A DNA stretch of 64,000 bases from Amycolatopsis acidiphila (GTDB lineage: Bacteria > Actinomycetota > Actinomycetes > Mycobacteriales > Pseudonocardiaceae), in assembly GCF_021391495.1 (NCBI RefSeq), contig NZ_CP090063.1, forward strand, positions 7,750,001 through 7,814,000, in the 5' to 3' direction. Shown piece after piece: positions 1,222 to 63,073 of the stretch. The notes beneath the pieces are model-generated. The model was given only the letters and a program-made list of their open reading frames with translations, was not told where the DNA came from and searched no databases. Both the position numbers and the translations under genes were made by a program. How positions within the stretch are numbered: the stretch's first letter is position 1; each line of letters begins with the position of its first letter.

Positions 1222-1255
1222 GAACCCGCCGTGCGCCTTTCAACGCAACGGGCTC
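1222..1255 (-). ncRNA. Domain V hairpin of group II intron 1
   Basis: On the minus strand the 34-nt hairpin starts GAGCCCGTTGCG, has a TTGAAA loop region, and closes with GGCGGGTTC. This matches the near-invariant domain V (catalytic triad stem and GNRA-like loop) of group II introns. It lies about 60 nt before the 3' splice site, as expected. Confidence 0.9.
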
Positions 1256-1271
1256 TCCACGGTTTCTGTCG

Positions 1272-2735: not shown

Positions 2736-3885
2736 TGCAGCATCCCTTCTTCTCGGAACCGCTGCCGTCCTTCCCCAATGTGACCGGCTTTCCCGGCCTC
2801 CGAGTACTACGACGGCTCCGCCCTGTCCGGTGTGTTCGGCAGACGGTGTGCCTATCCCGACGCGCAAACTGGATGCCCACGAGCCGGGAACCATCGCCAG
2901 ACAGTTCCCGTGTTCACTGCTGATCGCTTGCCGAAGGAGGCATCTGACTTTGTTCCCGCGATATCGCCGTGACTACGCCGCAGACCTTCACCACGGCCTC
3001 CCTGCGAAGGTGAAAATCCCCGCTCAGGAGTTCCCCGCCTCACCAGAGAACGGGTGCGCATCGCAACCGGCCATCCGCCAGGTTTCAGCCGGTGACTACT
3101 TAGGAAACGTAACACGCCAGTTCCTCGCGTATACCTCTTCGGCTCGTTTGCCGGACCCGCACCATCTGGCAGTTCTGGCACGTCCCGGTTTTGTCAGGGC
3201 CGCTTGCCACCCTTACCGGCACCTCCCGGTTCAGGCTGCCCTCAACTTCAACAGTCCGCTGCGACGGCCTGCAGGAGAAGGTCTTCCACCTCCTCGCGAT
3301 ACAACAGCGCTTTCACGGCGCACTTTCCCCGGTTGTCATCCCTTTCGCGTACAGCGACAGCACGATCTCGTCCACGTCGGCGAGCCGGCGTTGCCGCTTC
3401 TTGACGATCTGAGGCTCGAAAGTGCTTTCCCGATCCCTCGGCACGTCGATCCGCACCTCGCCGGCGGCATCCGAGAGCACGGTCTTCGGCCGGCTTCCAT
3501 TTCGCACATTGGTCGATTCCCGACTCGGATCGGCCTGGCGCTTCTCGTGACCGAGGTGCTCGGTCATTTCCTCGTTCAGCGCCGTTTCCAGCACGTTCTT
3601 GGTGAACAGCTTCAGCAGGCCGTCCGGCCCGGTCAACGCCAGCCCGCGAGCCCTCGCCTCGGCCACCATCGCCGCCGCGGCGGCCTGCTCCGGCGACAGT
3701 TGCCGCCCCGATTTCTTGGTCTTCTTCTCCGCGTCCACGGCGTCAGAGTCCATCACTCTCCGTGCCCATCCCGCCGGACCTCGGCCCGGCGTAGTAAGGG
3801 AACTATGCCGATGCGTGTTGATCACGGGGACGTCCTCCTGATGTCGTGTGCGGGCTTGCAGTCCCAGGACATCGAGGAGGACGTC

Positions 3886-35841: not shown

Positions 35842-36262
35842 CTCAGTCCTCCGAGTTGGTTGTCAAGGTCTCGATGCGCGCGGCGATGGCGTCGGCGGTA
35901 TCGGACACCGACAGCGCGGCGGCACACAGCCGGTCGGCTGACAAAGTATACGCCCCGACTTGATCTTGGTCCTGAACGTAGATGGCTCCGGTGGGGTACT
36001 CGATGTAGCCGATGCTTTGGGCTTCGTCGAAGTCCAGCAGCAGGAAGTCCCCATCGAGCCCGTCATGGACGGCGACGTTGACCGGCATGACGTGTAGTTC
36101 GACGTTGTCGCGCTGCATCAGGGTGAGCAGGTGTTCCAGTTGTGCCCGCATGACCTGCGGGCCGCCGACGACACGATCAAGGACGTACTGCTCGATGACG
36201 GCGCGGAACCGCAGCGGGTTGGTCTCGTCGGTGAGCCGCTGTCGCGCCATGCGGGCGCGCAC

Positions 36263-37691
36263 GAGCAATGCTTGGAATCTGTGGATGGCCGGGAGGGGGC
36301 GTACCTTCCCGGTGACCGGTTGAAGGTTCCAAGCATGGCCGACGCGCCAACGTCGGCCGGGAAGGTACGACCCGATGCTCACCGTAGTCCCTGACCCTGC
36401 CGCTGGCGATGACGGCGCTCCTGTCGGCTCGCGGTCGTTGATTGATGAGATCGTGCGTGAGGGCGCGTGTCGGATGCTGGCCGAGGCTCTGCAGGCCGAG
36501 GTGGACGCCTACATCGCGCGGTTCGCCGGCGAGCGTGACGAGCGCGGCCACCGCCTGGTCGTGCGTAACGGCTACCACCAGCCGCGTGAGGTGCTCACCT
36601 CGGCGGGCGCGGTCGAGGTGACGGCGCCGCGGGTCAACGACAAGCGCACCGATCCCGAGACTGGTGAGCGGATGCGGTTCTCCTCGGCGATCCTGCCGCC
36701 GTGGGCGCGTAAGACCCCGAAGATCACCGAGGTACTGCCGCTGCTCTACCTGCACGGCCTGTCATCCGGGGATTTCGTGCCCGCGCTGGGGCAGTTCCTG
36801 GGCTCGGCGAAGGGCTTGTCGTCGGCGGTGATCACGAAGCTGACCGAGCAGTGGAAGGCCGAGCAGCGCGCGTTCGCCCAGCGTGATCTGTCCACTGTGG
36901 ACTTCGTGTATCTGTGGGCAGACGGGATCCACGTCAACATCCGCCTGGAGGAGGCGAAACTGTGTCTTCTGGTGATGATCGGGGTGCGCGCCGACGGCCG
37001 CAAGGAACTCGTCGCCTTGGCCGATGGCTACCGCGAGTCCACCGAGTCTTGGGCGGATCTGCTTCGGGACTGCAAGCGCCGCGGGATGCGTGCCCCGGTA
37101 CTGGCCGCCGGGGACGGCGCGCTGGGGTTCTGGGGCGCGCTGCGCGAGGTGTTCCCTGAAACCCGCGAGCAGCGCTGCTGGTTCCACAAGATCGCCAATG
37201 TGCTGTCCGCTCTCCCGAAGTCGGCGCACCCCGGTGCGAAGAAGGCCCTCGCGGAGATCTGGAACGCCGAGGACAAGCGGCACGCGCTGGACGCGGTGAA
37301 GGCCTTCGACGCCGCCTACGGCGCGAAGTTCCCCAAGGCGGTCGCGAAGATCACCGAGGACATTGACGTGCTGCTCGCGTTCTTCGACTTTCCGGCCGAG
37401 CACTGGGTGCATCTGCGCACCACCAACCCGATCGAGTCGACCTTCGCCACCGTGCGGCACCGCACCAAGGTCACCAAAGGGCCAGGCTCGCGCGCCGCCG
37501 GGCTCGCGATGGCGTTCAAGCTCATTGAGTCAGCACAGGCCCGCTGGCGCGCGGTGAACGCACCCCACCTCGTCGCGCTCGTCCGCGCCGGAGCCCGCTT
37601 CGAGAACGGACAACTCGTCGAACGACCCGACGACCACACCCAACCCGCAGCAGCCTAAAAGATCTTCATCCACAGATCTTGACAATTGCTC
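36263..37691 (+). mobile_element. IS256-family element, copy 1 (1429 bp, intact)
   Basis: Ends: left GAGCAATGCTTGGAATCTGT; right, reversed, GAGCAATTGTCAAGATCTGT. It is flanked by a perfect 9-bp target duplication GGCGCGCAC (36254-36262 and 37692-37700), in line with the 8-9 bp made by the family. It carries a complete transposase. Inserted in the Scr1-type regulator gene. Confidence 0.95.
36375..37658 (+). CDS. IS256-family (mutator) transposase, copy 1
   Basis: 427 residues. DDE residues D183 (YLWADGIHVN), D247 (VLAAGDGALGFW) and E354 (TTNPIESTFATVRHRT). LVVRNGYHQPREVLTSAGAVEV is the N-terminal conserved block. ATG 36375 follows GGGAAGGTACGACCCG. Full length, no lesion; the protein from the second copy (61301) is identical. 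Only distantly related to the IS256 split by the intron near 1-4 kb. Confidence 0.95.
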   Translation: MLTVVPDPAAGDDGAPVGSRSLIDEIVREGACRMLAEALQAEVDAYIARFAGERDERGHRLVVRNGYHQPREVLTSAGAVEVTAPRVNDKRTDPETGERMRFSSAILPPWARKTPKITEVLPLLYLHGLSSGDFVPALGQFLGSAKGLSSAVITKLTEQWKAEQRAFAQRDLSTVDFVYLWADGIHVNIRLEEAKLCLLVMIGVRADGRKELVALADGYRESTESWADLLRDCKRRGMRAPVLAAGDGALGFWGALREVFPETREQRCWFHKIANVLSALPKSAHPGAKKALAEIWNAEDKRHALDAVKAFDAAYGAKFPKAVAKITEDIDVLLAFFDFPAEHWVHLRTTNPIESTFATVRHRTKVTKGPGSRAAGLAMAFKLIESAQARWRAVNAPHLVALVRAGARFENGQLVERPDDHTQPAAA

Positions 37692-38238
37692 GGCGCGCAC
37701 GACCTGCTGGGCGTCCATCGGCGGGACGCGGAGGTTGCCCACCAGCAGCGCGGCGGCGTAGTCAGGCGTCTGAAGTTGGCCGGGCAGCAACAGCGACTCG
37801 TAGGAGAACTCGGCGGCGGCGAGCCCTTCGAGCCCGACGAAGATCTTGAACCAGTTGGGCAGTACGTCGCTGAACGGTGCCCACCAGGTGCCCTGATCGG
37901 CACGCGCCGCCAACGACGCCATGCGGTCGACGTGCTCCACGTCCGCGTCGTACGCCCGGAGCAACGCGGTGACCTCGTCGGGTTTCTGCTGTGTCTTCCC
38001 GGTCTCCAGGTAATTGATCTTTGCCTGGCTGCAACCGAGCACCTTGGCCGCTTCGGTCTGCTTCAGGTTCGCGCGCTCACGGGCGACCTTCAGGTCATGC
38101 CCGATCAGGAAACGCAACGCGGACGGGTCTGCGCGATGGTCGGCCACTGATGCCCTCCCGTATGCCTGCCAGATCACACACAGTGTCGCATCCATCGAGT
38201 CACATAACACCAGGTCCACCCAATGGATGTATAGATCA

Positions 38239-40507: not shown

Positions 40508-41687
40508 ATGAATACCCGCCTCGGCGTCGTCACGCGCCGGGTTAATGACTCGCGTCGCACATGGACTGCGATCGTCGACCAGCACGCTACGTGGATCGCG
40601 GTGAACCCTATCCAGGGCTGCCCGAAGGTCTGCTCGTACTGCTTCTTGAACGAGCGGGGGCAGACCGCTGTTCGACCTGAGCAGTTGGCCAGCCCAGCGG
40701 AGACGGTCGACCTGCTCACCGCATCGCCGTACTACGCGCCGGATCGCCCGGTCGCGCTGTACACGTGGACCGATGTGATGGCGCTGCCGAATTCCCGCGC
40801 GCACCTCGCCGATCTGCTGGCCGTGCTGGTCGACCGGAAGATCCCCAACCCCATCGTGCTGATAACCAAGTGCCCGATCCCCGATGACACGGTCGACGCG
40901 GTGACCACGGCCCGGCAAGCCGGGCTACGGACGATCGTGTACCTGAGCTATTCCGGCTTGGGGCGCGACCTGGAACGCGGTATCCGGCACGAGGAGTTGA
41001 AGGCCAACTTCCCCCGGCTGGCCCGACGCTGGTGTACCGGTCGTGCACTACTGGCGGCCCGCGTTTCCGGAGTCCGCGACCACGCGCACGATGGAAGCGG
41101 TCTTCGACTGGGCAGCGACGTACGCGCACTGCACCGTGGCCGCCGGTCTGAAGGTGGAACCCGCCGCGCTGCCCCGATTAGCCGAGCGGTGGCCGGAACT
41201 GGCCACCACGCCGGGCGTCACCGCAGCCGAATGCGTGTACCCGCAAGCGTTCTGGGACTTCATCCACGCAACCCACCAGCGCCGCCCCGGCTATCCGTTG
41301 TTCCACACCAACTCCTGCGCGTTGGCCTACGTTCTCGGCCAACCCGACCGGTTCGGGGTGTTTGGCAGCAACGTGTGTACGGCGCGAAATCACTGTCCGA
41401 GTGCGCAACGGCAGCGCTGTGAAGCCGACAACCTCCGCAGACCGGCACTGGCGGAGGCGACCGTTCGCGCCGCGCTGGCCCGGCGTGGACACGCCAACAC
41501 GGCGTTCACCCTCGACCATCCCCGTGGAGAAGTCGTGATCCATGCGATCCTGCCCACCAACGCCGCCGCCGCGCTGACGCACGACCTGGGCATTCGGGTC
41601 CGCGTCGCCCGTCAGCACAGCGACCCCTACTGGAACAGCTGTCTTTGCCGCCTAGTTTTGGCCCCACTTGTCCGCCTTAGGTTCTAG
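40508..41687 (+). pseudogene. Radical SAM protein, frameshifted and interrupted near its 3' end by IS30
   Basis: The Fe-S site is NPIQGCPKVCSYCFLNERG (C38, C42, C45, CX3CX2C). LYTWTDVMALPNSRAHLADL, NPIVLITKCPIPDDTV and IVYLSYSGLGRDLERGI follow. Near 41027 one extra base shifts the frame; the product continues GVPVVHYWRPAFPESATTRTM to PYWNSCLC at about 41655. Sequence after that leads into the IS30 left end. ATG 40508 follows AAGGAG at 10 nt. Related radical SAM proteins occur in actinobacterial integrative elements; substrate unknown. Confidence 0.8.
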
Positions 41688-44600
41688 CGGTGGTTGCAAC
41701 GCCGAGCCTGAAAGGTGTTGCAGTGACTGGGTTTCGCCGGAACATCCGTAAGCGTGGTCCTGAGCCATTGGCTGCCAAGCGTGATCAATATCTTCAGCTC
41801 ATGGATCAGGGCGTGAGCAACTCGGCGGCGTGCCGAGAGGTGGGGATCAACCGGCGGACTGGAACGCGGTGGCGTTACGGCCGGACCGAAACGGACAGCG
41901 CGGGGCGGACCTACTCCTACCCGTCGATCACCGAGCAGCCGCGGGTTATCTCGTCGCGGTTTCTGTCCGAGGACGAACGGGTGAGCATCGCTGACCTGCT
42001 GCTGGCCGGCCATTCGATCCGGCAGATCGCTCGCCAGCTCAAGCGCGACCCGGGCACGATCAGCCGCGAGATTCGTCGCAACCGTGACCCGAAGACCGAG
42101 AACTACCGGCCCCATCAGGCCGAACGTCGCGCTCAGGTGCGTCGCGCCCGGTCAAAGGAAGGCAAGCTGCGGCGCAACACCGAGCTGCGGGAGTACGTGC
42201 AACAGCGCCTCGACCAGCGCTGGAGTCCGGAACAGATCAGCTCTACGTTGCGGCGCGAGTTCGCCGAGGACCCGGAGATGCAGGTCGCCCCGGAGACGAT
42301 CTACCAGGCCCTGTATCGACCCGAACGTGGTGGTCTGCACCGCGAGGCCGCCACGAAACTGCGCACCCGCCGACGCGCCCGGCGCAAGCGTCGCCGCCCG
42401 GACCAGCGCGTCACCCGGTTCGTCGACCCCGGTGCGCTGATCAGCGAGCGGCCCGCCGAAGTACTTGACCGTGCCGAACCCGGGCATTGGGAAGGCGACT
42501 GTGCGACACGAAGTTGCACGAATTTGAGTGGACTGACCGATTGAGAGGCGGCTGATGGCAAGGCCGTAGGTGCAGTCACGGGTCCGTGTCCGTACGACCC
42601 GTCCCCGCCTCTGACGTGCGATGCTGGTAACGGCGTGATGCGAAGCTCAGGGGAAAGCCCAAGGGCTCCCGTTCCATCCGGGAGCTACCGGCAAGGGGAA
42701 GACCGGACGGGTGAACGCAAGTGAACTCCCGATGATGCCTCGTGATCCCAAGCCCCGCCGATGGAAAGTTCCAGCGGGGTGCATGGCTGGCCGCTGAGAA
42801 GCGGCAGGCGCTGGCCGGCAGAGGTCACTCCGGCCAGGTGGACACCGCCGCCTCGGGGTAAAGGGAGCACCCACCCCGGTCGCATCTCGTTCGTGTGGAA
42901 CGTGGAAACCCCGTTGAGGTCCGGGTCGTCGTGGCCCGGTCGGCCGACCGCGAGGAAGGCTCAACTCCCCAGCGGGAACAGGATGGCCCAAGAAGCCAAT
43001 GCCGGAAGCCGAAAGGAAACGGGAACCCGGGCATGATGACCAGCCTCTCCGCCGGTCGCCCCGCATAACCGTCCGGATACGGGTGTTCTGCCCGGACCCG
43101 AAAGGGTGCTGACGTGGGCCAGGTGAGCTTGTACGGACTCACTGGACAAAGACGACGGAACCGAGAGACAAGTTGGACACCATGACCGACACGGCCGGAG
43201 CGGTCTCGACCATCCCGCCGACCGTCGCGACGGTGAACGGACCCGAGGACGAAGACCTGGACTGGGCGTCGATCGACTGGCACCGGGTCGAGGAAGACGT
43301 ACGGCGTCTGCGGCAGAGGATCTTCACGGCATCGCAGGCAGGGGACCGCAAGAAGGTCCGCAACTTGCAGAAGCTGATGCTCCGGTCCCGATCGAACACG
43401 CTGCTGAGCGTGCGGCGGGTCACGGAAATCAACGCGGGACGAGCGACTGCGGGAGTCGACGGGAAGGTGGTGCTTCTATCTCAGTCCAAGGCCGAGTTGG
43501 CCGACTGGGTCCAGCACCGTGCCCGACCGTGGACTCCCAAGCCCGTCAAGCGGGTGTTCATCCCCAAACCAGGGACCACGAAGAAGCGCGGCCTCGGGAT
43601 TCCGGTGATCATTGACCGGTGTCTGCAAGCGGTGGCACTGGGCGCACTGGAACCCGAGTGGGAAGCGCGGTTCGAGCCGAAGTCGTACGGCTTCCGGCCC
43701 GGCCGCGGCTGTCACGACGCGATCGGGGCCATCTACTCCACGCTCAACGGGAAGAACCCGCAGCGCGTGTGGGTGCTCGACGCGGACCTGACGGCGGCGT
43801 TCGACCACATCAACCATGAACGGCTGATGACCGCACTCGGTACCTTCCCCGCCCGGGACTGGTCCGGCAGTGGCTCAAGGCCGGGGCGGTGGATCGAGGC
43901 CGGCTCGCTCCGACCGAAGCGGGAACTCCGCAAGGCGGGGTGATCAGCCCGTTGCTGTTCAACGTGGCCCTGCACGGGATGGAGGAAGCCGCAGGGGTCC
44001 GCTACTACACGACCGGCAGAGACGCTGGGAGTGCGCAGAGCGGGAGCCCCGTGCTGGTGAGGTACGCAGATGATTTTGTCGCGATGTGCACCAGCCGTGA
44101 GCAAGCCGAACAGGTCAAGGAACGGCTGAGTGCATGGCTGGCACCAAGAGGGCTCGTCTTCCACGAGGACAAGACGCGCATCGTCCACGCGGACAGCGGG
44201 TTTGACTTCCTGGGATTCAACGTCCGCCGCTATCACGGCAAGCTGCTGATCAAGCCGAGCGCAGCGGCTCAACGACGGATCCGGGAACGGCTGAGCGCCG
44301 AGATGCTGGCCCTGAGAGGGGCCAACGCGGGTGCGGTGCTCAAGAGGATCAACCCGATCGTGCGGGGCTGGTCTGCCTATTACCGGACGGTGGTGTCCAG
44401 CGAGGTGTTCACCGCGCTGGACAATCACATGTGGACGCTCGCTTACAAGTGGGCCAAACACAGCCACCCGAACAAGCCGAAGCACTGGATATCCGACAAG
44501 TACTTCGGCCGGTTCAACAAGGCCAGGCAGGACCGGTGGGTGTTCGGCGACCGCGACAGCGGCGCCTACCTGCTCAAGTTCTCCTGGACGAAGATCGCCC

Positions 44601-44768
44601 GGCACCAGTTGGTCAAGGGCAGGGCGTCTCCGGATGACCCGGCGCTGGCGTCCTACTGGGCCCAGCGGCGTCGCAAGGGACCGCCCCCACCGGTCGACCG
44701 CATGACCATGCGCCTGCTTCAGGCACAGCAAGGTCGTTTGAGGTTCCCCCCGAACAGTGGACAGGTCT

Positions 44769-45739
44769 TCAAGCAGCTTTCGCTGCGCCTGTCAGGGACT
44801 GCTCGTAACACACAGGACTGAGCATCCCGATCGCGGAGTGACGTCGACTATCGTTGTACCGTCCGATCCAATTGTCAACCGCAGCAACAATTTCTGCCTT
44901 GGTAGCAAAGGTATGACGGTAGTAGTACTCATGCTTGAACGTCGACCAGAACGATTCCGCAGGGCTGTTATCCCAACATATTCCGGTATCACCCATCGAT
45001 CGTTCCAGCTTATGTGCGGCACAGGCGTTCGCGGTCAACGCCGCAGTGAACTCCCCGCCACGATCGGAATGCAGCACCGTGCCGGCGACACCGCCGCCAC
45101 GGCAGGCCGCCGCCGCGTCGATGGCCTGACGCACCATGTCCGCGCCGATATGGTCGGCCACGACGTGCCCCAGCACACGGCGAGAATGCCCATCCCGGAT
45201 CGCGCACAAGTACATATCACCCTCACCGCAGGACAGGTAGGTGATGTCGGTCAGCCAGACCGCATCCAGCCGCCCTGGTCGAAGTGCCGCCGCACCAGAT
45301 CCGGCGGAAACGACGCCGTCGGATCGGCCACCGTGGTACGCACCTTGAACGTGCGCGGACTGATGCCCTCGATCCCGATCTCCGCCATGATCGCCGCGAC
45401 GGTCTTCTCGTTCACCGTCTCGCCTCGGTCCCGCAGCTCGCTGGTGATCCGCGGTGACCCGTACGTGCCATCGGAACCGGCGTGCACGTCCAGGATCTTC
45501 ACCGTCAGATCCGCGCGCCGCTGCTGGCGCGGCATCAGCACCGTGCTCCTGGCGCGTTTCACGTACGCGTAGTAGCCGGATGTCGAGACACCCAGCAGCC
45601 GTGCCATGCGCCGCACGGAGAATCGTGTGTTCTTGGGTGAGGTGGCGCCGGCGGTCTCGGCGGGTTCGTCGGGGCGGCGTACTTCACCATCAGATCGAAC
45701 CGTTCCGGTTCTTCTGCATCGCAGCAAAGTACGCCGAGG
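44769..45739 (-). pseudogene. IS3-a OrfB (DDE integrase), frameshifted
   Basis: The N-terminal half reads [20 protein letters not shown] and [20 protein letters not shown] to RRHFDQGG. A base is missing near 45275. The second half continues [20 protein letters not shown] (Asp), VLHSDRGGEF (Asp) and CWDNSPAESFWSTFKHEYY (Glu), ending at 44769. All catalytic residues are present, but in two frames that do not correspond to the normal OrfA/OrfB slip. Confidence 0.85.
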
Positions 45740-45779
45740 GTCGAGTGGCCCGGGGGAATCGCACCCCCGGGCTCTCACA

Positions 45780-45813
45780 GAACCGTGCGTGACAATCTCT
45801 CGTCACACGGCTC
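45780..45813 (-). ncRNA. Domain V hairpin of group II intron 3
   Basis: 34 nt on the minus strand, opening GAGCCGTGTGACGAG and closing GCACGGTTC, directly after the maturase stop. A strong CCCGGGGG/CCCCCGGG stem (domain VI) follows before the 3' splice site. Confidence 0.88.
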
Positions 45814-47061
45814 CTACCATCCAGTCGCCATGAACCCACGGGTGTATTGCCAGTGCGCGAACAGCCGGGGATACCCCAGCCCCAACGCTTTCCACCAGGC
45901 ATTGACCTTCTTGAACCCGTGCAACCGCCGATACTTCTTCCGAGCCCACCGCACCAAGTAGGTGTTGATGCGTTTGCACAGCGCATACAGCTTCGACCGA
46001 TAGAACCGGCCGTAGTACTGCAACCAGCCCCGCACGATCGGGTTGATCCATCACGCGATCTGGCCCAGAGTCCAGTCGGTATGCCGATGCAGCCGCCAAC
46101 CGCGCACTTCGCGGTTGATCCGCTTCTCGGCCTCTTTGCTGATCGCAGGCAGGAACGACCCGAACAACTGACCGTTTTTGTCCCGCGCGTCCGCGCCCGG
46201 AACTCGTACCCCAGAAACGTGAACGACGTGTGCTCATACGAGCCGGTCCGCCGGTTCCAGTTCTGGCAGTACACGACTTTCGTCTTGTCCGGGTGCAGCG
46301 TCAGCCCGACCTTGGTCAGGCGCTTGGTGATGGCGTCGCGCAGCATCAGCGCTTGCTTCTCGCTGACACAGTGCACAACGGCGTCGTCCACAATACCGCT
46401 CGTACGCGACGCCCGGGAACTTCCGAGCCATCCACGCGTCGAAGGCGTAGTGCATGAATAGGTTCGCCAAAATCGGGGATACCACAGACCCTTGAGGGTT
46501 CCCCGGTCCCGTCGTTCCAGCGTCCATCCGAACGTTGCAGCGGCGCGGACAGCCACCGCTGCACATACAACACCACCCAAGCTGAGTCGGTGTTGGCCCG
46601 GACGCCTTCATCATCAGTTCGTGATCCACGGTGTCGAAGAACTTCGAGATGTCCAAGTCGAGCACCACTCGGCTTCAAACACCGCCGCCGGCACGCCGCG
46701 ACCGCGTGCAGCGCCGAGCGTTTCGGCCGATAACCGTACGAGTCGGGATGGAACATGGCTCCACCCGCTTCTCGATCTCCATGGCCACCACCGTCTGCGC
46801 AACCCTGTCCGCAACCGTCGGAACACCCAGAACACGAACTCCGCCACCGGTTTTCGGGATCTCCACCGCCCGCACGGGCGGCGGAAAGTACGTCCCGAGG
46901 ACATCCGATTCCAGACCTTGTAGAGATGTTCCGCAAGTCGGCTTCGAATTCCTCGATCGACACACTGTCGACCCCGGCGGGCACCCTTGTTGGCCTTGAG
47001 CTTCCCCCGGTTGTCCGGACACCTCACTGAGGTGACCGCCGGTCACCAGGAGGATGTTCTC

Positions 47062-47352
47062 GTGCCTGCACCACACCTGCCTGAGTTCCGTCAGCGTGCC
47101 GTCGAGCTGGCCCGGCTGGGCGACAAACCCGTCGCCGCACTGGCGAAAGATCTGGGCATCAGCCAGTCCTGCCTGCGCAACTGGATGGCCCAGGCCGACA
47201 CCGACGAAAACGGTTCGGCCACCCGGCTCTCCAGCTCGGAAAAGAAGGAACTGGCCGAGCTGCGCCGCAAAAACCGGCAACTCGAACTGGAAAACGAGAT
47301 CCTGAAACGGGCCGCCGCCTACTTCGCGCGCGAGAACATCCTCCCAAAGTAA
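47062..47352 (+). CDS. IS3-b OrfA
   Basis: 96 residues: LPEFRQRAVELARLGDKPVAALAKDLGISQSCLRNWM (HTH) and the coiled coil KKELAELRRKNRQLELENEILKRAAAYFAREN. GTG 47062 follows AGGAGG at 8 nt. Intact, but its OrfB is not. Confidence 0.82.
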   Translation: MPAPHLPEFRQRAVELARLGDKPVAALAKDLGISQSCLRNWMAQADTDENGSATRLSSSEKKELAELRRKNRQLELENEILKRAAAYFARENILPK

Positions 47353-48028
47353 CGTTCCCGCTGGTCCACGAACTCGCCGCCGACGGAATCGACGTCGCGG
47401 TGGCCTGCCGGGTCCTGAACGTGTCCCGTTCCGGGTATTACGACTGGCGCGATCGGCCGAATCCGAGCGAGACCGGGACAACGAGCTGCTGCTGAAACAC
47501 GTCGAGCAGATCCATGCCGATTCCCGACAAACCTACGGATCACCGCGAGTCCACGCCGAATTGACGCTGGGCTTGGGCCTGCCGGTGAACCGCAACGCGT
47601 CGAACGGCTCATGCGCGAGGCCGGCATCCAGGGCCTCTACCGGCGGAAACGAGCCCGGACCACCATTCGCGACCCGGCCGCCGAACCCGCCCCGGACCTG
47701 GTCAACCGCCACTTCGCCGTCACCGAGCCGGACCGGCTGTGGATCACCGACATCACCGGAGCACCCCACTGCCGAAGGGAAACTGTACTGCGCCGCGGTC
47801 ATGGACGCCCATTCCCGGCTGATCATCGGCTGGTCCATCGCCGGCCACATGCGCACCGAACTCGTCACCGACGCGCTCGGCATGGCCATCATCCGACGCA
47901 AACCCGACCACAATGCGACGATCCTGCATTCCGACCACGGCTCCCAATACACCTCCTGGGCATTCGGACAGCGACTCCGCGCCGCCGGACTGCTCGCCTC
48001 CATGGGCACCGTCGGCGACTGCTACGAC

Positions 48029-49349
48029 TGTGAGACTGTCTTTCGTCGCTCGAGTCCGGCGTGACCCGTGTTACGACTGGCCCTGCGGGTGCCCTGGCGT
48101 TGATCTGTCCGCCGGCTCGAGCGACGCCAGAGGGTGGCGCGCCGAGTGGGCAGTGACCTCATAGGAGCCTGATCGCAGCAGGTCCCATCACAGTCCTGTC
48201 CGCCCGCCCGGCTGCGCCGTGACCACGCAGCCCGGGAAGGACACGCGCCAGTGCCAAGCATCCCCCATCCCTCTCGTCCACGCATCGTCGTCGGCGTCGA
48301 TACCCACAAACAGACCCACGTCGCTGTTGCGTTGAACCAGGTCGGAGCCGTGATTGGCGAAACCACGATCCCGGCGCACCGGGCTGGCTACGCCCAGCTG
48401 CAGCGTTGGGCGTGCGAGCTGGGCGAGCACGAGGGCGAGGTCGAGTTCGGCGTGGAGGGCTGCGGGTCCTACGGTGCTGGGCTGGCCTCGTTCCTGCGTC
48501 GGGCGGGTCATCGGGTCGTCGAGGTCAACCGTCCCGATCGCAGCGTGCGGCACCGGCGCGGCAAGGACGACACCATCGACGCGGAGACCGCGGCCCGTGC
48601 GGTGCTGTCGGGCGCCGCGACCGCGGTGCCCAAGACTGGCGACGGTACCGTCGAGATGATCCGCCAGGTCAAAATAGCGAAAGACACCGCGACCAAAGCG
48701 CGCAGCCAAGCGATCATCACGCTGAAGACCATCATCGTGAACGCGCCAGCCGAGCTTCGTGAAATTCTCGAGCCCCTCGGCGACAAAGCGCTGATCGAAG
48801 AATGCCGGAAACTTCGCTATGAATCGATGAGCGGTCCCATCGATGCCGCCTGCTACACGCTGCGCGCACTGGCCGACCGATACCACGCACTCGACCAGGA
48901 AACTCGCCTGCACGACCGCGTCCTGGCCACACTCACCAACCGCGCCGCACCCGCGTTGACCAGCCTGTTCGGCATCGCCGAGGACTCCGCGTCCGAGCTG
49001 CTGATCGTCGTGGGCGACAACCCTGACCGCATCAACAGCGAGGCAGCCCTGGCCAAGCTCTGCGGCGCCTGCCCCATTCCCGCGTCGTCAGGAAAAACGT
49101 CCCGCCACCGCCTCAACCGAGGCGGCCACCGGCAGGCCAACGCCGCACTGCACCGCATCCTCGTGGTCCGCATGCGATTCCACGAACCCACCATCACCTA
49201 CGTCACCCGCCGCACAGCAGAAGGCAAAACCAAGAAAGAGATAATGCGCTGCCTAAAACGGTTCCTGATACGTGAAATCTATCAAATAATCGTGGCGCCG
49301 CACAAGACGAACCCTCTGCCATCTACAACTTGACAACTATAGGAGCATC
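48029..49349 (+). mobile_element. IS110-c, innermost element of the nest (1321 bp)
   Basis: Limits set by the restored IS3-b frame. It begins TGTGAGACTGTCTTTCG and ends ACTATAGGAGCATC; no inverted repeats or target duplication, as usual for IS110. The 222 non-coding bases before the transposase contain CATAGGAGCCTGATC, echoing the 3' terminus; this 5' non-coding end is where IS110 elements encode their bridge RNA. Confidence 0.85.
48251..49333 (+). CDS. IS110-c transposase (DEDD)
   Basis: 360 residues. DEDD domain: IVVGVDTHKQTHVAVAL, EFGVEGCGSYGAGLASFL and RRGKDDTIDAETAARAVL. Tnp_20 domain: LTSLFGIAEDSASELLIVVG, LCGACPIPASSGKTSRHRL (serine motif) and NRGGHRQANAALHRI. ATG 48251 chosen at MPSIPHPSRP. 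Intact and the only undamaged transposase inside the nest apart from short OrfA. Confidence 0.92.
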   Translation: MPSIPHPSRPRIVVGVDTHKQTHVAVALNQVGAVIGETTIPAHRAGYAQLQRWACELGEHEGEVEFGVEGCGSYGAGLASFLRRAGHRVVEVNRPDRSVRHRRGKDDTIDAETAARAVLSGAATAVPKTGDGTVEMIRQVKIAKDTATKARSQAIITLKTIIVNAPAELREILEPLGDKALIEECRKLRYESMSGPIDAACYTLRALADRYHALDQETRLHDRVLATLTNRAAPALTSLFGIAEDSASELLIVVGDNPDRINSEAALAKLCGACPIPASSGKTSRHRLNRGGHRQANAALHRILVVRMRFHEPTITYVTRRTAEGKTKKEIMRCLKRFLIREIYQIIVAPHKTNPLPSTT

Positions 49350-50839
49350 AACGCGATGATGGAATCGTTCTGGGGAACCCTCCAACTCGAACTCCTCGAC
49401 CAGAAACAATGGGAAACCCGCGACCAGCTTGCCAACGCGATATTCGAATGGATAGAATGCTGGTACAACCCGAAACGGAGACACTCCGCCATCGGGATGC
49501 ACAGCCCCGTCACCTTTGACGCCTTGCACACCCGGTCAGACCAAGATCACTGACCCCACACCGCAGGTGTCCGCCAAACGGGGGGAAACTCACCTTGACC
49601 CTGCCAAACGCTTTTGCCACAGCCCATTTCGAAATTTCGAACGGCTTCATCAACGGCCCTGATCGACTCACGCGGCTCCTCCCGGCTGCTGCCGGTTGAC
49701 CGCATCAGCGACCCGAATGGTCCGGCCCCTTCGCTCCACACCCATTACAGGCGCTTCACCACTACTACGAGCCGGTCCGCCAGCACGCCCCGCATCGGTA
49801 CTCAACGCCTTACAGTTCTTGCTGCTTGGCGCACTCCCTCTCGCTGCCGAAGCAGCAGTATCAGGGCATGCCTTCCCACGTTCCGTGCGAACGCCGCAGA
49901 TCAGGCTCACGTCGCCTCCATGCCGGACACCGCCTGGCCAGAAATCGGGACCCCCGCCAGACTTATCCCGGTGCCAAAAAGACGCCCCGGTTTCGATGTC
50001 ATCTGTTTCCATTTCGACACGTCGTCAGCGATTCACTCACGTTCGTCTTCCTGATCCCCGCCTGACGCCCTCCAACGGGGCACCTTTTCCTCATCGCTCA
50101 CCACGACGGTCGTCAGCCAACGCAGCATGAGGTGGTTTGGAGCCTCCCACCCGACGGGCGACTCCGAAGGGCCACAACCCCTTCATCATCCGCACAGCAC
50201 CACGATCTGCTACCTGACCTACTTCACGCAGCGTCTCGTGTTCGTGGCACACCTTTTACCAGGAACGCGTTGTCCTTCTCCAACTCGCCGACCTGCCGTC
50301 GCAGCCGCGCCAGCTCGGCCCGCTCGGCCGGCTCCAGGGGTTTCTCCCCGTGGACCTCGGCGGCGGCGATCCTGCGCCGCTCGTCTTTGACCCAGGTGCT
50401 CAACATCCCTGGGTCGATTCCCAGTTCGCGGGCGACGTCGGCGATCGTGCGGTCGGAATCGATCACACGATGCGCAGCCTCGACCTTGTACTCGGCCGTG
50501 CAGGACCGGCGTTTGCGAGGAGGCATGATGGACATCCTTCCAGCAGGACGGTCGTCCTGCTAACTCGGTGTCCACTCCCCGGGGGGAACCTCAGTTGCCC
50601 GACCTGCGGAGGACTTCTGTTGCACGCCGATCACCCGCCACGAAGCCCCCACGAATGGGAAACGTGGCGGGCCGTCATCAGGAAGGCGATCTCCAAGCAG
50701 TACATCGCCTTCACAGACGATGACTCGCCGGACGATCACAGGCTCCGTCTCCTTCACACCCTTTGTCGGCGACGGATTGGAGCCGTCAGGCCGACAAATC
50801 CCGCGCCTTCTCCTGACCCCGAGCCCTTGGGGCTTGCTT

Positions 50840-50874
50840 GAGCCGTGTGCGGTGAACAGCTGCTTGCACGGTTC
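50840..50874 (+). ncRNA. Domain V hairpin of group II intron 2
   Basis: A 35-nt hairpin opening GAGCCGTGTGCGGTG and closing GCACGGTTC, 40 nt before the 3' splice site. The following GGGGACGCAGTAATGCGTCCCC is a domain VI-like hairpin with an unpaired A region. Confidence 0.88.
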
Positions 50875-51439
50875 TGAGGGGCGGGGACGCAGTAATGCGT
50901 CCCCGCTACCCGACTGATCATCGGCGTGGGCAGCTCCGCGATCGGCACGCTGGTCGACCGGAGCACCAGGTTCACGATGCTGCTTCACCTGCCTCGCATG
51001 GACGGTCACGGCGTCGAACCGCGAGTGCACAACGGTCCCGCTCTCGCCGGCCGCGGCGCCGAGGCCGTCCGGGACGCGATCGCCTCGGCCATCGCCACGC
51101 TGCCCGAACCGCTGCGGCGGTCGTTGACGTGGGATCGCGGAAAGGAGATGGCCCAGCACGCCCGGCTGCGCATCGATACCGGCATCAAGGTCTACTTCGC
51201 CGACCCGCACAGTCCCTGGCAACGCGGCACCAACGAGAACACGAACGGCTTGCTGCGCCAGTACTTTCCCAAGGGCACCGATCTGTCCCGCTGGAGCCGT
51301 GACGAACTCGACGCCGTTGCTGCCGCTCTCAATAGCAGGCCCCGCAAGGCACTTGGCTGGAAGACGCCTGCCGAAGCCCTCAACGATCAGCTATTGTCGC
51401 TCCAGCAAGCCGGTGTTGCGACGACCGATTGATCTCAAG

Positions 51440-52092
51440 CTGACTGCCCGCGTCAGAATGATGAACCAGCTTGTCCTCACCTTCCTTCCACTGGTACGAT
51501 CTGTCCCGCAAGCCAATTTCGATGGCGTCGATGGCGTCGAGGACTAGGTCTGTTTCCTTGGACATGCTGCACGTCCACCCGACGATTTTTCGGGAGAACA
51601 CGTCAATCCCGAACGCGGTATACACAGTGCCCGCCCAGGTGGACACGTAGGTGAAGTCCGCCACCCACAACCGATTCGGCGCGCCCGCCGTGAACTGGCG
51701 TTTCACCAGGTCCAGGGCTCGGACACCGTCCTTGTCGGACACGGTGGTACGGACCGTCTTCCCACGAACAGCGCCGGCCAGGCCCATGTTCCGCATGAGC
51801 CGCTCCACCCGGCACCGCCCCACCGCGACGCCTTCACGCCGCAATTCCCGCCAAATCTTCCGGGCGCCGTAAACCTGGTAATTCTCGTCATACACGCGCT
51901 GGATTTCCTTCTTCAATTCCTCATCACGCACCTCCCGCGCCGACTTCGGGCGCGTCAAAGCCGCATAGTAAGTGGACGGAGCGATCTTCACACCGAACTC
52001 GGTCAGCGTGGTACAGATCGGCTCGACTCCGAACCGGTCCTTGCATTCCGTGATGAACGTTACGAGCGTGACTGTCGAGGGTCGAGCTCCCT
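51440..52092 (-). pseudogene. IS3-c OrfB, truncated at both ends
   Basis: FITECKDRFGVEPICTTLTEFGVKIAPSTYYAAL starts the clear homology (about 52063). YGARKIWRELRREGVAVGRCRVERLMRNMGL and RLWVADFTYVSTWAGTVYTAFGIDVFSRKIVGW (first Asp) follow. It ends at KLVHHSDAGSQ (second Asp), cut by IS30. The N-terminal junction with IS110-d reads RELD at the edge of the insertion. Confidence 0.85.
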
Positions 52093-53398
52093 GATGCTCC
52101 TATGTCAAGCCCCTATGTCAAGCCGCCTGCGGCAGCGGTGCAGATTCGGTTGTGGTCGGCCGCTTGGCCGGCGCGGCACGGTGCTCGTCGGCCAGAAGTG
52201 CGCGGAACACAACGTCGGAGAGCCGTCGCCGGAGCAGGCGGATGGCCTCTTTGCGGGTCTTGCCGCGCGCGAGGAGCTTGTCGACGTAGTCCTTGCCCGG
52301 TCCGATGCCTCGAACCTGGGTGATGGCGATCATGTGCAGGGCGCAGTTGATGGTGCGGTTGCCGCCGCGATTGAGCCGGACCTTGCCAGAGCTGCTGCCC
52401 GACCAGACGGGGATCGGGGCGGTTCCACTGAACCGGGCGTAAGCGTCCTTCGAGCGAAACCGTTGCGCCCCAGCCGTTTCCCCAAGGATAACCGCGGCGC
52501 CCAGAACCCCGCAGCCGGGGACTTCCAGCAGCGTGGGCGCCAGGACGCGCACCCGGTCACGCAGTTCACGCTCCAGGGCGTTGATCTGCATCGTGAGCTC
52601 CCGGCAGCGAGCCAGCAGTTCGCGGGCGATGCGCGCCACAAGACCGTCGCGGCCGGCCAGGCGGCGGGCCAACTCATCGATGACGCAGTAACGGCGCAGA
52701 CCACGCGCGGGGACATGCAAGTTCGGGTCGATTTCGTGCAGGTGCCAGCGCAACCGATTGATCAGCTCCGTGCGCTGCTCGACGAGGTTGTGGCGGTAGT
52801 CGACCAGCAGCTTCACCTCGCGAGTCGGCCCATCCAGCTGCGCGACGGCCAGGTCTGGCTCGCGCAGAGCCGCGTGCGCCACTGCCAACGCATCGATCGG
52901 GTCGGACTTCCCGGGCGCGCGCCCGCTGCGACGGGACGCGGCCATCAGATGGGTGGGCACCCGCGCCACCGCGCACCCGGCGCTCAGCAAGTCACGTTCC
53001 AGCCTGCGTGTGACATGCCGGCAATCCTCGACCGCGAAGCGCGCGTTCGGCCACTGGCCGGCCCATTCCACAATCTTCAAGTGGTCCTCGCTGGTGGTGC
53101 CGACCGTCCGCTCGGCCAGCTTCCGGCCGATCCCGTCAACGGCTACCAGCGTGTGGCTGCGTTTGTGCGCATCCACACCGATCACGACCATGCTCAACCC
53201 GGGTTCCCTTTCCTCGCAGACCGATGACACCATCGGGCGAGGCGGGCACGCGTCAATCGGGCCTGCGGCGCGCTCCTATGAAGCCACATCCTCGCCCAGC
53301 GGGTGTCCGGCGGGGCCGCACATCAGGACAAGCCACCAGTCGCCTGGGGCAGCGAAGAAACGAGCGAACCCTGCCGGACACCAAGATCATGACATTGA
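52093..53398 (-). mobile_element. IS110-d inserted between OrfA and OrfB of IS3-c
   Basis: The 3' terminus (minus) is ACATAGGAGCATC at 52093; the 5' limit near 53398 is inferred from rejoining TTCTTCGCG to AGGGAGCTC (FFAREL, a common IS3 junction). A tandem GACATAGGGGC / GACATAGGAGC pair sits at the 3' end. About 207 non-coding bases precede the transposase and include CATAGGAGCGCG. Confidence 0.65.
52118..53191 (-). CDS. IS110-d transposase (DEDD)
   Basis: 357 residues from ATG 53191 (MVVIGVDAHKRSHTLVAVDG). ARFAVEDCRHVTRRLER and GKSDPIDALAVAHAAL complete the DEDD site. The C-terminus has LLEVPGCGVLGAAVILGE, FSGTAPIPVWSGSSSGKVRLNRGG (serine motif) and RTINCALHMIA. A longer start at 53233 is possible. 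No lesion. Confidence 0.9.
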   Translation of the reverse strand: MVVIGVDAHKRSHTLVAVDGIGRKLAERTVGTTSEDHLKIVEWAGQWPNARFAVEDCRHVTRRLERDLLSAGCAVARVPTHLMAASRRSGRAPGKSDPIDALAVAHAALREPDLAVAQLDGPTREVKLLVDYRHNLVEQRTELINRLRWHLHEIDPNLHVPARGLRRYCVIDELARRLAGRDGLVARIARELLARCRELTMQINALERELRDRVRVLAPTLLEVPGCGVLGAAVILGETAGAQRFRSKDAYARFSGTAPIPVWSGSSSGKVRLNRGGNRTINCALHMIAITQVRGIGPGKDYVDKLLARGKTRKEAIRLLRRRLSDVVFRALLADEHRAAPAKRPTTTESAPLPQAA

Positions 53399-53704
53399 CG
53401 CGAAGAAAATCGACGCCGCTTTCAAAATCTCCGTCGCCCGACGCAATTCTCGGTTTTCGCGTTCAAGCTCACGAATCCGCTCCGCCTCCGCGCTCGTCGG
53501 CCCCGGTCGCTCCCCGGCACCCGCCTCCGCCTGGCGCACCCACCGGCGCAGCGTCTCCGCCGTCACCCCCACCTTCTCCGCGATCGACCGGATCGCGTCC
53601 CACTGCGACGAATACTGCCCCACCTGCTCAAACACCAACGCAACCGAGCGTTCACGCAGCTCACGCGGGTACCTCGACGACCGTCCCATGATCATATTCT
53701 CCAC
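53387..53704 (-). CDS. IS3-c OrfA
   Basis: 105 residues: GRSSRYPRELRERSVALVFEQVG, an HTH with SIAEKVGVTAETLRRWVRQAEA, and the coiled coil EAERIRELERENRELRRATEILKAASIFFAS. The last few codons (SMS, stop at 53387) come from the inserted IS110-d. ATG 53704 or 53695 (MIMGRSS). Its OrfB partner is destroyed. Confidence 0.8.
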   Translation of the reverse strand: MENMIMGRSSRYPRELRERSVALVFEQVGQYSSQWDAIRSIAEKVGVTAETLRRWVRQAEAGAGERPGPTSAEAERIRELERENRELRRATEILKAASIFFASMS

Positions 53705-53730
53705 TCACACGTGGAGTCTCCATCAAACCC

Positions 53731-61057: not shown

Positions 61058-61188
61058 CGGACTTTGTGCCAGAGCCGGAATCCGGTCCGGACGAGCCCGT
61101 CCGCCTGGGCAAGGCCCGCGTCCAACACGTCTCGTTCGCCGCCTTGGCCAGGACGACCAGCCGTTTGACCAGGCCCCGTGCCTGGGTC
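61058..61188. other. 5' exon flank of the intron remnant; no gene recognised
   Basis: 131 bases between the intron start and the left end of IS256 copy 2. Open in several frames but without a recognisable motif. The last bases (CCTGGGTC) differ from the TSD next to copy 1. Confidence 0.4.
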
Positions 61189-62617
61189 GAGCAATGCTTG
61201 GAATCTGTGGATGGCCGGGAGGGGGCGTACCTTCCCGGTGACCGGTTGAAGGTTCCAAGCATGGCCGACGCGCCAACGTCGGCCGGGAAGGTACGACCCG
61301 ATGCTCACCGTAGTCCCTGACCCTGCCGCTGGCGATGACGGCGCTCCTGTCGGCTCGCGGTCGTTGATTGATGAGATCGTGCGTGAGGGCGCGTGTCGGA
61401 TGCTGGCCGAGGCTCTGCAGGCCGAGGTGGACGCCTACATCGCGCGGTTCGCCGGCGAGCGTGACGAGCGCGGCCACCGCCTGGTCGTGCGTAACGGCTA
61501 CCACCAGCCGCGTGAGGTGCTCACCTCGGCGGGCGCGGTCGAGGTGACGGCGCCGCGGGTCAACGACAAGCGCACCGATCCCGAGACTGGTGAGCGGATG
61601 CGGTTCTCCTCGGCGATCCTGCCGCCGTGGGCGCGTAAGACCCCGAAGATCACCGAGGTACTGCCGCTGCTCTACCTGCACGGCCTGTCATCCGGGGATT
61701 TCGTGCCCGCGCTGGGGCAGTTCCTGGGCTCGGCGAAGGGCTTGTCGTCGGCGGTGATCACGAAGCTGACCGAGCAGTGGAAGGCCGAGCAGCGCGCGTT
61801 CGCCCAGCGTGATCTGTCCACTGTGGACTTCGTGTATCTGTGGGCAGACGGGATCCACGTCAACATCCGCCTGGAGGAGGCGAAACTGTGTCTTCTGGTG
61901 ATGATCGGGGTGCGCGCCGACGGCCGCAAGGAACTCGTCGCCTTGGCCGATGGCTACCGCGAGTCCACCGAGTCTTGGGCGGATCTGCTTCGGGACTGCA
62001 AGCGCCGCGGGATGCGTGCCCCGGTACTGGCCGCCGGGGACGGCGCGCTGGGGTTCTGGGGCGCGCTGCGCGAGGTGTTCCCTGAAACCCGCGAGCAGCG
62101 CTGCTGGTTCCACAAGATCGCCAATGTGCTGTCCGCTCTCCCGAAGTCGGCGCACCCCGGTGCGAAGAAGGCCCTCGCGGAGATCTGGAACGCCGAGGAC
62201 AAGCGGCACGCGCTGGACGCGGTGAAGGCCTTCGACGCCGCCTACGGCGCGAAGTTCCCCAAGGCGGTCGCGAAGATCACCGAGGACATTGACGTGCTGC
62301 TCGCGTTCTTCGACTTTCCGGCCGAGCACTGGGTGCATCTGCGCACCACCAACCCGATCGAGTCGACCTTCGCCACCGTGCGGCACCGCACCAAGGTCAC
62401 CAAAGGGCCAGGCTCGCGCGCCGCCGGGCTCGCGATGGCGTTCAAGCTCATTGAGTCAGCACAGGCCCGCTGGCGCGCGGTGAACGCACCCCACCTCGTC
62501 GCGCTCGTCCGCGCCGGAGCCCGCTTCGAGAACGGACAACTCGTCGAACGACCCGACGACCACACCCAACCCGCAGCAGCCTAAAAGATCTTCATCCACA
62601 GATCTTGACAATTGCTC
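61189..62617 (+). mobile_element. IS256-family element, copy 2
   Basis: Same ends and length as copy 1. The right flank is GGCGCGCAC and the interrupted XRE gene, exactly as in copy 1, but the left flank is unrelated, so there is no target duplication. This marks it as the product of recombination rather than a fresh insertion. Confidence 0.93.
61301..62584 (+). CDS. IS256-family transposase, copy 2
   Basis: 427 residues, identical to the protein at 36375 including D183, D247 and E354. Same ribosome-binding site. Intact. Confidence 0.95.
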   Translation: MLTVVPDPAAGDDGAPVGSRSLIDEIVREGACRMLAEALQAEVDAYIARFAGERDERGHRLVVRNGYHQPREVLTSAGAVEVTAPRVNDKRTDPETGERMRFSSAILPPWARKTPKITEVLPLLYLHGLSSGDFVPALGQFLGSAKGLSSAVITKLTEQWKAEQRAFAQRDLSTVDFVYLWADGIHVNIRLEEAKLCLLVMIGVRADGRKELVALADGYRESTESWADLLRDCKRRGMRAPVLAAGDGALGFWGALREVFPETREQRCWFHKIANVLSALPKSAHPGAKKALAEIWNAEDKRHALDAVKAFDAAYGAKFPKAVAKITEDIDVLLAFFDFPAEHWVHLRTTNPIESTFATVRHRTKVTKGPGSRAAGLAMAFKLIESAQARWRAVNAPHLVALVRAGARFENGQLVERPDDHTQPAAA

Positions 62618-63073
62618 GGCGCGCACGACCTGCTGGGCGTCCATCGGCGGGACGCGGAGGTTGCCCACCAGCAGCGCGGCGGCGTAGTCAGGCGTCTGAA
62701 GTTGGCCGGGCAGCAACAGCGACTCGTAGGAGAACTCGGCGGCGGCGAGCCCTTCGAGCCCGACGAAGATCTTGAACCAGTTGGGCAGTACGTCGCTGAA
62801 CGGTGCCCACCAGGTGCCCTGATCGGCACGCGCCGCCAACGACGCCATGCGGTCGACGTGCTCCACGTCCGCGTCGTACGCCCGGAGCAACGCGGTGACC
62901 TCGTCGGGTTTCTGCTGTGTCTTCCCGGTCTCCAGGTAATTGATCTTTGCCTGGCTGCAACCGAGCACCTTGGCCGCTTCGGTCTGCTTCAGGTTCGCGC
63001 GCTCACGGGCGACCTTCAGGTCATGCCCGATCAGGAAACGCAACGCGGACGGGTCTGCGCGATGGTCGGCCAC
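62618..63073 (-). pseudogene. N-terminal half of the Scr1-type XRE regulator, second copy
   Basis: Same as 37692-38147: GTG start, HTH and first part of DUF5753, then truncated by IS256. No C-terminal half follows on the other side of this IS copy; reading through into the IS adds only a few residues before a stop within it. If expressed, it would give a DNA-binding fragment. Confidence 0.9.

Follow-up and report, generated by a model that had tools for sequence, protein, structure and literature searches.

How do mobile elements come to lie inside one another many layers deep in a bacterial chromosome? Nesting in bacteria is usually taken as chance clutter. In this study, we analyzed a 64,000-nucleotide stretch of an actinobacterial chromosome (Amycolatopsis acidiphila; hereafter the window), in which complete mobile elements are stacked six deep and enclosed by the remnant of a seventh. 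From the outside inwards, the order is IS3-d (truncated), IS30, intron 2, IS3-a, intron 3, IS3-b and IS110-c. The nest spans four element families, its two introns lie on opposite strands, and a second IS110 (IS110-d) sits beside the main chain, inside the IS3-d remnant. Our main reading, to which we give a probability of roughly 0.8, is that its depth comes from docking, with several members of the nest inserting at conserved transposase codons of other elements. The layers are as follows.

51441..53730, minus strand: IS3-d remnant, the truncated outermost layer (Pfam HTH_21, rve and HTH_Tnp_1)
51441-52092, minus strand: IS3-d orfB fragment, ending at HHSDAGSQ, with its C-terminal half missing
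53399-53730, minus strand: orfA side of IS3-d, separated from the orfB fragment by IS110-d
52093..53398, minus strand: IS110-d (Pfam DEDD_Tnp_IS110), in IS3-d orfA at the ASIFFARE codons
41676..51440, plus strand: IS30, with inverted ends, HTH_38 and an rve match just below cutoff
41690-42500 and 50915-51432, plus strand: halves of the IS30 transposase, split by intron 2
42501..50914, plus strand: group II intron 2, in IS30 between GHWEGD and LIIG (RF00029 domain V)
44739..50593, minus strand: IS3-a, in the reverse transcriptase gene of intron 2 (relatives L192 and L194)
45740..50252, minus strand: group II intron 3, in IS3-a orfA between FLVK and ASAYFAA (RF01999 and RF00029)
46997..49592, plus strand: IS3-b, in the reverse transcriptase gene of intron 3 (relatives L189 and L190)
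48029..49349, plus strand: IS110-c, the innermost element (Pfam IS110 domains), with an intact transposase frame (48251-49333)

The nest is a genuine stack of mobile elements. Relatives, inverted ends, target site duplications (TSDs) and protein domains all agreed with the nesting and the element identities proposed in a first-pass annotation. IS30 combined inverted ends with an HTH_38 and rve transposase, the rve domain scoring 31.2 bits on the split half against a cutoff of 32.6. Both IS3-a and IS3-b had an orfA helix-turn-helix, an orfB rve domain, inverted ends and a 3-bp TSD, and IS110-c carried DEDD and Transposase_20 domains. RF00029 domain V and RVT_1 were found in both introns and RF01999 in intron 3; on the pieces searched, GIIM appeared in intron 2 only, and the second copy of intron 2 (see below) showed RVT_1, RVT_N and GIIM. 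Group II introns start with GUGYG and end with AY, a rule that the end sequences (GTGCGAC...CCGAC and GTGTGCC...TCGAC) fit. Intron 3 was also considered as a twintron of intron 2, which was rejected since a twintron needs the same sense and the two are on opposite strands.

Each of the five inner junction pairs was compared with relatives without the insert or with the host element intact, and the coordinates first proposed proved correct, mostly to the single base. Joins using at most 60 nt per side opened the reading frame across all five junctions and gave the motifs GDCYD-NAMMESFW, KANKG, FLVK-ASAYFAA, QGR-CPTCGG and HWEGD-LIIGVG, as had been predicted. Two relatives of IS3-b in the same genome (77% identical; L189 and L190) have an empty IS110-c site, whose placement is ambiguous by 1 base (48028 and 49349 map to the same base in these relatives). 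The alignment of L189 begins at exactly the end bases of IS3-b, which has 28-bp inverted ends (82% complementary) and the expected TSD CCT on both sides (46994-46996 and 49593-49595). A relative of intron 3 (L182) is continuous through the IS3-b site, and an intron-less relative of IS3-a (L194) is contiguous at 45739/50253. IS3-a has 25-bp inverted ends (88% complementary) and is flanked on both sides by the predicted TSD GTT (44736-44738 and 50594-50596); intron 2 relatives without IS3-a have the expected length. The first and last bases of intron 2 were identical in 16 of 18 close relatives, the other two being without the 5' end. The locus supplies clean empty and filled sites for every inner step, and its TSDs are compatible with either a stepwise history or the arrival of several layers as a block.

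Two features of the architecture differed from the initial description. The IS30 ends (41676 and 51440), set by comparing inverted ends with IS30 copies having different flanks, held to about +/-1 base, but IS30 is not the outermost layer, as it lies itself in the truncated IS3-d. The strict alternation of DNA transposons and retroelements fails at the center, where IS110-c in IS3-b makes both members of the innermost pair DNA transposons.

The nest lies within a unit of about 24.9 kb that, as assembled, is tandemly duplicated between IS256 copies:

36262..37692, plus strand: IS256 copy 1 (Pfam Transposase_mut), left border of the duplicated unit, with flanking repeat GCGCGCA
61188..62618, plus strand: IS256 copy 2, the duplication joint, whose flanks are hybrid (CCTGGGT on the left and GCGCGCA on the right)

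The IS256 copies are 100% identical, and unequal recombination between two direct copies probably duplicated the unit after the nest had formed. Alternatively, the nest or its duplicate could have been made by misjoined repeats during assembly. Between the window copy and its twin, we counted 20 single-base indels in the coding frames and zero substitutions, with 19 of the 20 indels falling in 43857-47759. This points to poor consensus in that interval, and the frameshifts of the window copy look like consensus errors because indels occur there without substitutions. However, the recombination joint is clean at the IS256 flanks, TSDs are present at junctions of the nest, and relatives agree with these junctions. 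Apart from the duplicate copy and 27-bp matches shared by the genes of the two introns, the other own-genome matches to parts of the nest, among the matches listed, were partial and at most 83% identical; with no close alternative copies among them, it is unlikely that repeats caused the nest to be misassembled. Overall, we regard an assembly artefact as very improbable.

The nest had been read as six insertions without any special site. Several steps, however, occurred at sites used by related elements elsewhere, beginning with IS30. No C-terminal half of IS3-d was found left of IS30, and no target duplication was found at 41676/51440; the duplication would be absent if that left half of IS3-d had been lost. 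In one relative locus (G037), a similar IS3 is split by a different IS30 at the codon used in IS3-d, and both halves are present. Among the 23 plasmid relatives of IS30 that were fetched, 20 lay next to IS3-type HSDxGxQ catalytic codons (17 by strict HSDxG search and three via the following half), although these sites are partly non-independent (a single IS3 type is common to H13, H15, H19, H25 and H29, and another to H10 and H11). A flagged IS30 end in L174 and a flagged half in H24 were false positives of the search expression. Recurrence at the same codon spans Actinomycetota and Alphaproteobacteria. IS30 would dock at HSDxGxQ of IS3 through its own site preference. Domains and inverted ends are common to the IS30 family and the element here, and 2-bp duplications, read from the flanks, accompany the Actinopolymorpha copies; the group differs from the family in lying often at IS3-type HSDxGxQ codons, a habit for which our literature searches gave no description.

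Intron 2 belongs to a clade found at a single IS30 codon, GHWEGD, in all 15 close relatives with a usable 5' flank, compared with none of 17 more distant relatives. For L048, L062 and L101, whose 5' flanks are short or missing, the 3' flanks were read by eye. In one Streptomyces, introns about 100% identical lie within diverged IS30s, with 5' flanks that share only 60-68% identity, an indirect hint of splicing and retrohoming. The guide that may direct this choice is the following:

42823..42829, plus strand: candidate EBS1 of intron 2, in the loop of a conserved stem

Over 12 of 22 sequences, chosen as representatives of different targets, the candidate paired better on average with its own 5' exon (diagonal mean 5.58 of 7) than with those of the other sequences (3.62 of 7), although 3 of the 12 relatives paired at only 4 of 7 positions. 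Intron 2 itself pairs with one mismatch; two sequences outside this set paired at 4 of 7 (L102) and 6 of 7 (L067) positions. An earlier choice, the GGTCGCC segments, was rejected as it is invariant when the target changes, whereas the later candidate does vary.

The site of intron 3 recurred less widely. L182 carries a relative at the same IS3 orfA motif, so that one other genome has the site occupied; among the 26 relatives whose 3' end was located, it is the only one. When 394 genomes were searched by pattern for intron 3 inserted at FLxK (one mismatch allowed), only the copy in the window and its twin were returned, and no relatives of intron 3 were confirmed in viral contigs. Its guide has been placed as follows:

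49975..49980, minus strand: candidate EBS1 of intron 3, pairing with its own exon

The position aligned within one column, and all six sequences showed 6/6 pairing with their own exon when G-U was allowed (two G-U pairs in intron 3 itself); two of eight 5' ends, those of L188 and of the outer intron in L178, were left out for want of a definite position. Both introns would select their sites by EBS1-IBS1 pairing, intron 2 docking at GHWEGD of IS30 and intron 3 at FLxK of IS3 orfA.

For IS110-c, the leader precedes the transposase frame:

48029..48250, plus strand: bridge-RNA-like leader of IS110-c, with guide matches (fold z -3.22)
LTG 48069-48077, RTG 48097-48102, LDG 48161-48168 and RDG about 48188-48193, plus strand: leader guides of IS110-c

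Sequence matches and the predicted fold place two internal loops in this leader, one matching the target and the other the donor, and the target guides match the CYDNA codons of IS3. Under strict pairing, 10 of 54,061 control sites matched equally well, compared with 750 of 54,061 when G-U was allowed freely, so that it is the strict count that carries weight. Across the 1.63 Mb of loci that were fetched, a slightly loosened guide motif occurred eight times (at four distinct places, as we read them), and each occurrence reads YDNAxAES, which we name by motif as IS3-type catalytic; a relative of IS110-c lies in the same IS3 motif in another locus (G188). It appears that IS110-c may dock at CYDNA of IS3 orfB by means of a bridge RNA. 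In IS621, also of the IS110 family, the leader likewise has target and donor loops, its LTG pairing with the bottom strand and its RTG with the top strand (PMC11208160). By comparison with the account of IS621 there, the guides of IS110-c fit IS3 transposase catalytic codons, and its second core base differs in our own reading (target CA vs donor CT).

The nest might alternatively reflect random insertions tolerated in dispensable elements, with the shared motifs reflecting merely the abundance of IS3. The TSDs of the two IS3 elements that entered intron genes are ordinary, and the docking survey covered the other steps. This explanation is already disfavoured by same-codon recurrence across genomes, with IS30 in both Actinomycetota and Alphaproteobacteria, and the strict control for the IS110-c guides also speaks against it; we consider it improbable. 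Under recurrent docking, the introns would be dispensable DNA open to IS3 elements, which insert there with ordinary 3-bp duplications and would supply fresh docking sites, so that the cycle could be repeated. The nesting, its junctions, the recurrence of sites in other genomes and the sequence matches between guides and targets were observed directly, while we infer the activity of the elements, the proposed action of the guides and the role of this cycle in producing the depth.

A different question is how many of the steps took place locally. It had been suggested that the succession of arrivals is directly legible, with the oldest element outermost. This is too strong, since IS30-plus-intron units move as blocks in Actinopolymorpha, where three near-identical units of 4.01 kb lie at three places, two of them, oppositely oriented, in IS3 targets of one kind and the third in another target. 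Nesting shows only that each host predates its guest. IS30 together with intron 2, or IS3-a and everything inside it, could therefore have formed elsewhere and arrived as units, giving fewer local steps than layers; the IS3 of L182, with its intron 3 relative, fits such a history as well. However, no block of more than one layer occurred elsewhere in the genome except the tandem duplicate, among the matches listed. We treat block arrival as possible but lean against it; it is compatible with docking, and both can be true together.

The depth does look exceptional for bacteria, as first suggested: no bacterial nest of comparable depth was found in open-licence PMC text. In Thermosynechococcus elongatus, group II introns occupy conserved sites either in an insertion sequence, as F4 does in ISEL1, or in further introns to form twintrons; in addition, an insertion sequence breaks an intron gene (TeI4g::ISEL2f), as described in PMC2882425. 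The cases described there have one or two layers, compared with six complete layers and four element families in the present nest, whose introns run on opposite strands. The nested intron arrays of Methanosarcina acetivorans, as cited in the same source, likewise show repeated nesting of retroelements, but there intron lies in intron and the citing text mentions no DNA transposons between them. For other IS-rich genomes, the accessible text of PMC3196728 and PMC5013485 describes no comparable nest. The component elements are already known; the depth and the interlocking targets look new.

On balance, we favor the broader view that IS3 transposase genes are a shared docking niche, in which at least three unrelated families (the IS30 group, IS110 via bridge RNA and group II introns via EBS1) would have become independently specific for IS3 codons that are catalytic or conserved for other reasons, with a further intron clade specific for IS30; deep nests would then be the predictable outcome of a stable food chain. 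Catalytic codons suit such guests, since they are conserved at the DNA level, occur in many IS types, travel with a mobile carrier and make targets that do the cell no harm. Several sites in the nest are predictable from guide sequences and conserved transposase codons, which makes the specialization of mobile elements on other mobile elements testable genome-wide. Beside the main chain, IS110-d may dock in the same manner, by bridge RNA, at ASIFFARE of IS3-d: the G037 relative is contiguous across 52092/53399, and the leader, in an uncontrolled comparison, has a 9-nt match to the left target and a 6-nt match on the right.

The Amycolatopsis acidiphila genome (G000) is a single contig of 8,183,622 bases, in which the window occupies positions 7,750,001-7,814,000. 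The first-pass annotation had described six mobile elements nested one inside another, and the class of each layer was backed by Pfam and Rfam in the order proposed:

41676-51440, + strand: IS30, outermost complete layer
inside IS30, + strand: group II intron 2
inside intron 2, - strand: IS3-a
inside IS3-a, - strand: group II intron 3
inside intron 3, + strand: IS3-b
inside IS3-b, + strand: IS110-c, innermost

The junctions predicted for the inner layers also held. First, the best 80 of 567 intron 2 relatives included 18 close ones, at least 87% identical; 16 of these shared their first and last bases with the window copy, and the other two had no 5' end. The close relatives were 2554-2559 nt long vs 2556 nt for the window copy after subtraction of IS3-a and one target site duplication (TSD). 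Second, IS3-a showed 25-bp inverted ends and the TSD GTT. Third, an intron-less relative of IS3-a (L194, genome G118) was unbroken across 45739/50253 and another (L192, G069) was nearly contiguous there, both reading FLVKASAYFAA at the intron 3 site. IS3-b had 28-bp inverted ends and the TSD CCT, and an intron 3 relative (L182) continued through its insertion site. Finally, two IS3-b relatives in G000 itself (L189 and L190) lacked IS110-c and thus represented the empty site. As had been claimed, removal of the layers restored the reading frames: the frame was open at all five points after short joins across the junctions.

The nest is present twice in the assembly. Its second copy lies 24.9 kb downstream, in a tandem unit of about 24.9 kb between direct IS256 elements (36262-62618 in the window, with the repeat starting at 61188; G000 7811188-7837558). 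Over 26,374 aligned columns, the two copies differed by 20 gap positions and 0 mismatches, the window copy lacking 17 bases and carrying 3 additional ones; the stretch 43857-47759 held 19 of the 20 indels. In the second copy, the genes of intron 2, IS3-a, intron 3 and IS3-b were open where those of the window copy were broken, except for one stop (TGA) read late in the intron 3 protein. The frameshifts of the window copy look like consensus errors, because an indel-only spectrum is unlike natural divergence. IS110-c carries the sole uninterrupted set of transposase genes of the nest in the second copy, in which intron 2 keeps its RT and maturase domains, its C-terminal part being severed by IS3-a. 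The duplicated units are flanked by three identical IS256 copies, the first with the repeat GCGCGCA, the third with CCTGGGT and the middle one with one of each, a hybrid pattern as expected if two IS256 copies in direct orientation had recombined unequally. The unit also encodes a protein of 818 aa that bears a phage integrase domain (PF00589; 57709-60162), and therefore may contain a remnant of an integrative element.

Outside the six layers, the right end of IS30 adjoins an IS3 orfB fragment at HHSDAGSQ. In genome G037, a relative of this element (IS3-d) is interrupted at the same codon by a different IS30 in opposite orientation, with the remainder of the gene beyond it. On these grounds we read IS3-d as a truncated seventh layer of the nest; its C-terminal half was absent left of IS30 in the window. 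IS3-d is itself interrupted by IS110-d at 52092/53399, where the G037 relative is contiguous.

The insertion of IS30 at IS3 catalytic codons appeared to be recurrent. Of 1144 plasmid records with an IS30 relative, 40 were among the matches listed and 23 were studied; the other 17 were apparent duplicates, four Roseomonas and others left out without a selection rule. IS30 lay next to an IS3-type motif in 20 of the 23 (16 of 19 without H3, H10, H12 and H38, whose IS3 label was visible before selection): the strict HSDxG motif adjoined it in 17, and in H6, H9 and H32 it adjoined the half following the motif. No such motif adjoined IS30 in H17, H24 and H40. These sites, from Alphaproteobacteria and Actinomycetota, are not all independent, one IS3 type being common to H13, H15, H19, H25 and H29 and another to H10 and H11, which leaves about 14 distinct sites by reading. 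In loci fetched for other purposes, which are IS30-enriched, an IS3 motif was flagged beside 9 of 17 distinct IS30-type ends (one further flagged end was a false positive), and five of seven HHSDxGxQ motifs were interrupted, all at the same codon. A group II intron RT gene preceded the IS30 end adjoining IS3 in H10 and H32, which reproduces the outer three layers of the window nest; the Streptomyces plasmid loci with this arrangement are L243 (sp. NBC_01520) and L250 (sp. NBC_01562). In Actinopolymorpha pittospori, two IS30-plus-intron copies (L058 and L060) occupy IS3 targets of one kind (HHSDRGVQ) in opposite orientations, so that their flanks look reciprocal; this could reflect two separate insertion events or rearrangement of one copy with the other.

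The introns and IS110-c also occupied transposase codons. Among the best 80 of 567 intron 2 relatives, a GHWEGD-type IS30 was the site in every one of the 15 close relatives whose 5' flank was long enough, vs 0 of 17 more distant ones with a placed 5' end; in the remaining close relatives (L048, L062 and L101) the 3' flanks fit, judged by eye. In one Streptomyces, introns about 100% identical sat in IS30s whose 5' flanks were only 60-68% identical, so this intron type apparently moves between IS30s, and in Actinopolymorpha IS30 apparently moves carrying the intron. For intron 3, 29 relatives were surveyed and the 3' end was located in 26 (one reading N past the end, three extrapolated), of which only L182 occupied IS3 orfA, at the same motif as in the window. 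By alignment, an intron-3-type intron also appeared within the RT gene of another, a twintron-like arrangement (L178; G163:C15, about 984-4638). A relative of IS110-c, on two contig ends of genome G188, occupied a different IS3, at the motif in which IS110-c sits in the window.

Candidate guides matched these targets to varying degrees. The candidate EBS1 of intron 3 paired at 6/6 positions, counting G-U pairs, with the final six bases of the exon in six of six sequences, three of which came from one genome, the position having been aligned within a column. For intron 2, the candidate EBS1 loop paired better with its own exon (mean 5.58 of 7) than with the exons of others (3.62) across 12 of 22 aligned sequences, and three of the 12 paired at just 4 of 7. 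The bridge-RNA-like leader of IS110-c folded better than shuffles (predicted z -3.22); its left target guide TGTTACGAC matched TGCTACGAC with one wobble and its right guide GCGTTG matched CAACGC. Equally good matches were found at 10 of 54,061 control sites under strict pairing and at 750 of 54,061 under loose pairing with G-U (14 positions). A slightly loosened motif occurred eight times (four distinct places by reading) in 1.63 Mb of overlapping, IS-element-enriched loci, and all eight read YDNAxAES, an IS3-type motif. IS110-d showed a candidate guide match of 9 nt on the left target and 6 nt on the right.

The nest probably grew by docking: elements that select their targets, by an inherent preference or through an RNA guide, would insert in transposase genes, roomy introns would take in IS3 elements, and each newly arrived IS3 would supply fresh docking sites. 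For T. elongatus, the literature describes introns at conserved sites of IS elements or introns, and an intron disrupted by an IS (PMC2882425). Within open-licence literature text, we found neither a bacterial nest of this depth nor any account of IS30 elements specific for codons of IS3.

Elsewhere in the window, group II intron 1 (domain V at 1159-1257) and about 3.8 kb of sequence around it (1-3792) recur as an inverted repeat near G000 7730879-7735685 (99-100%), with equal-score domain V copies at 3759689 and 7733414. Two methane/phenol/alkene hydroxylase-type genes (PF02332; 10098-11726 and 17117-18751) lie in a catabolic region next to the mobile elements.
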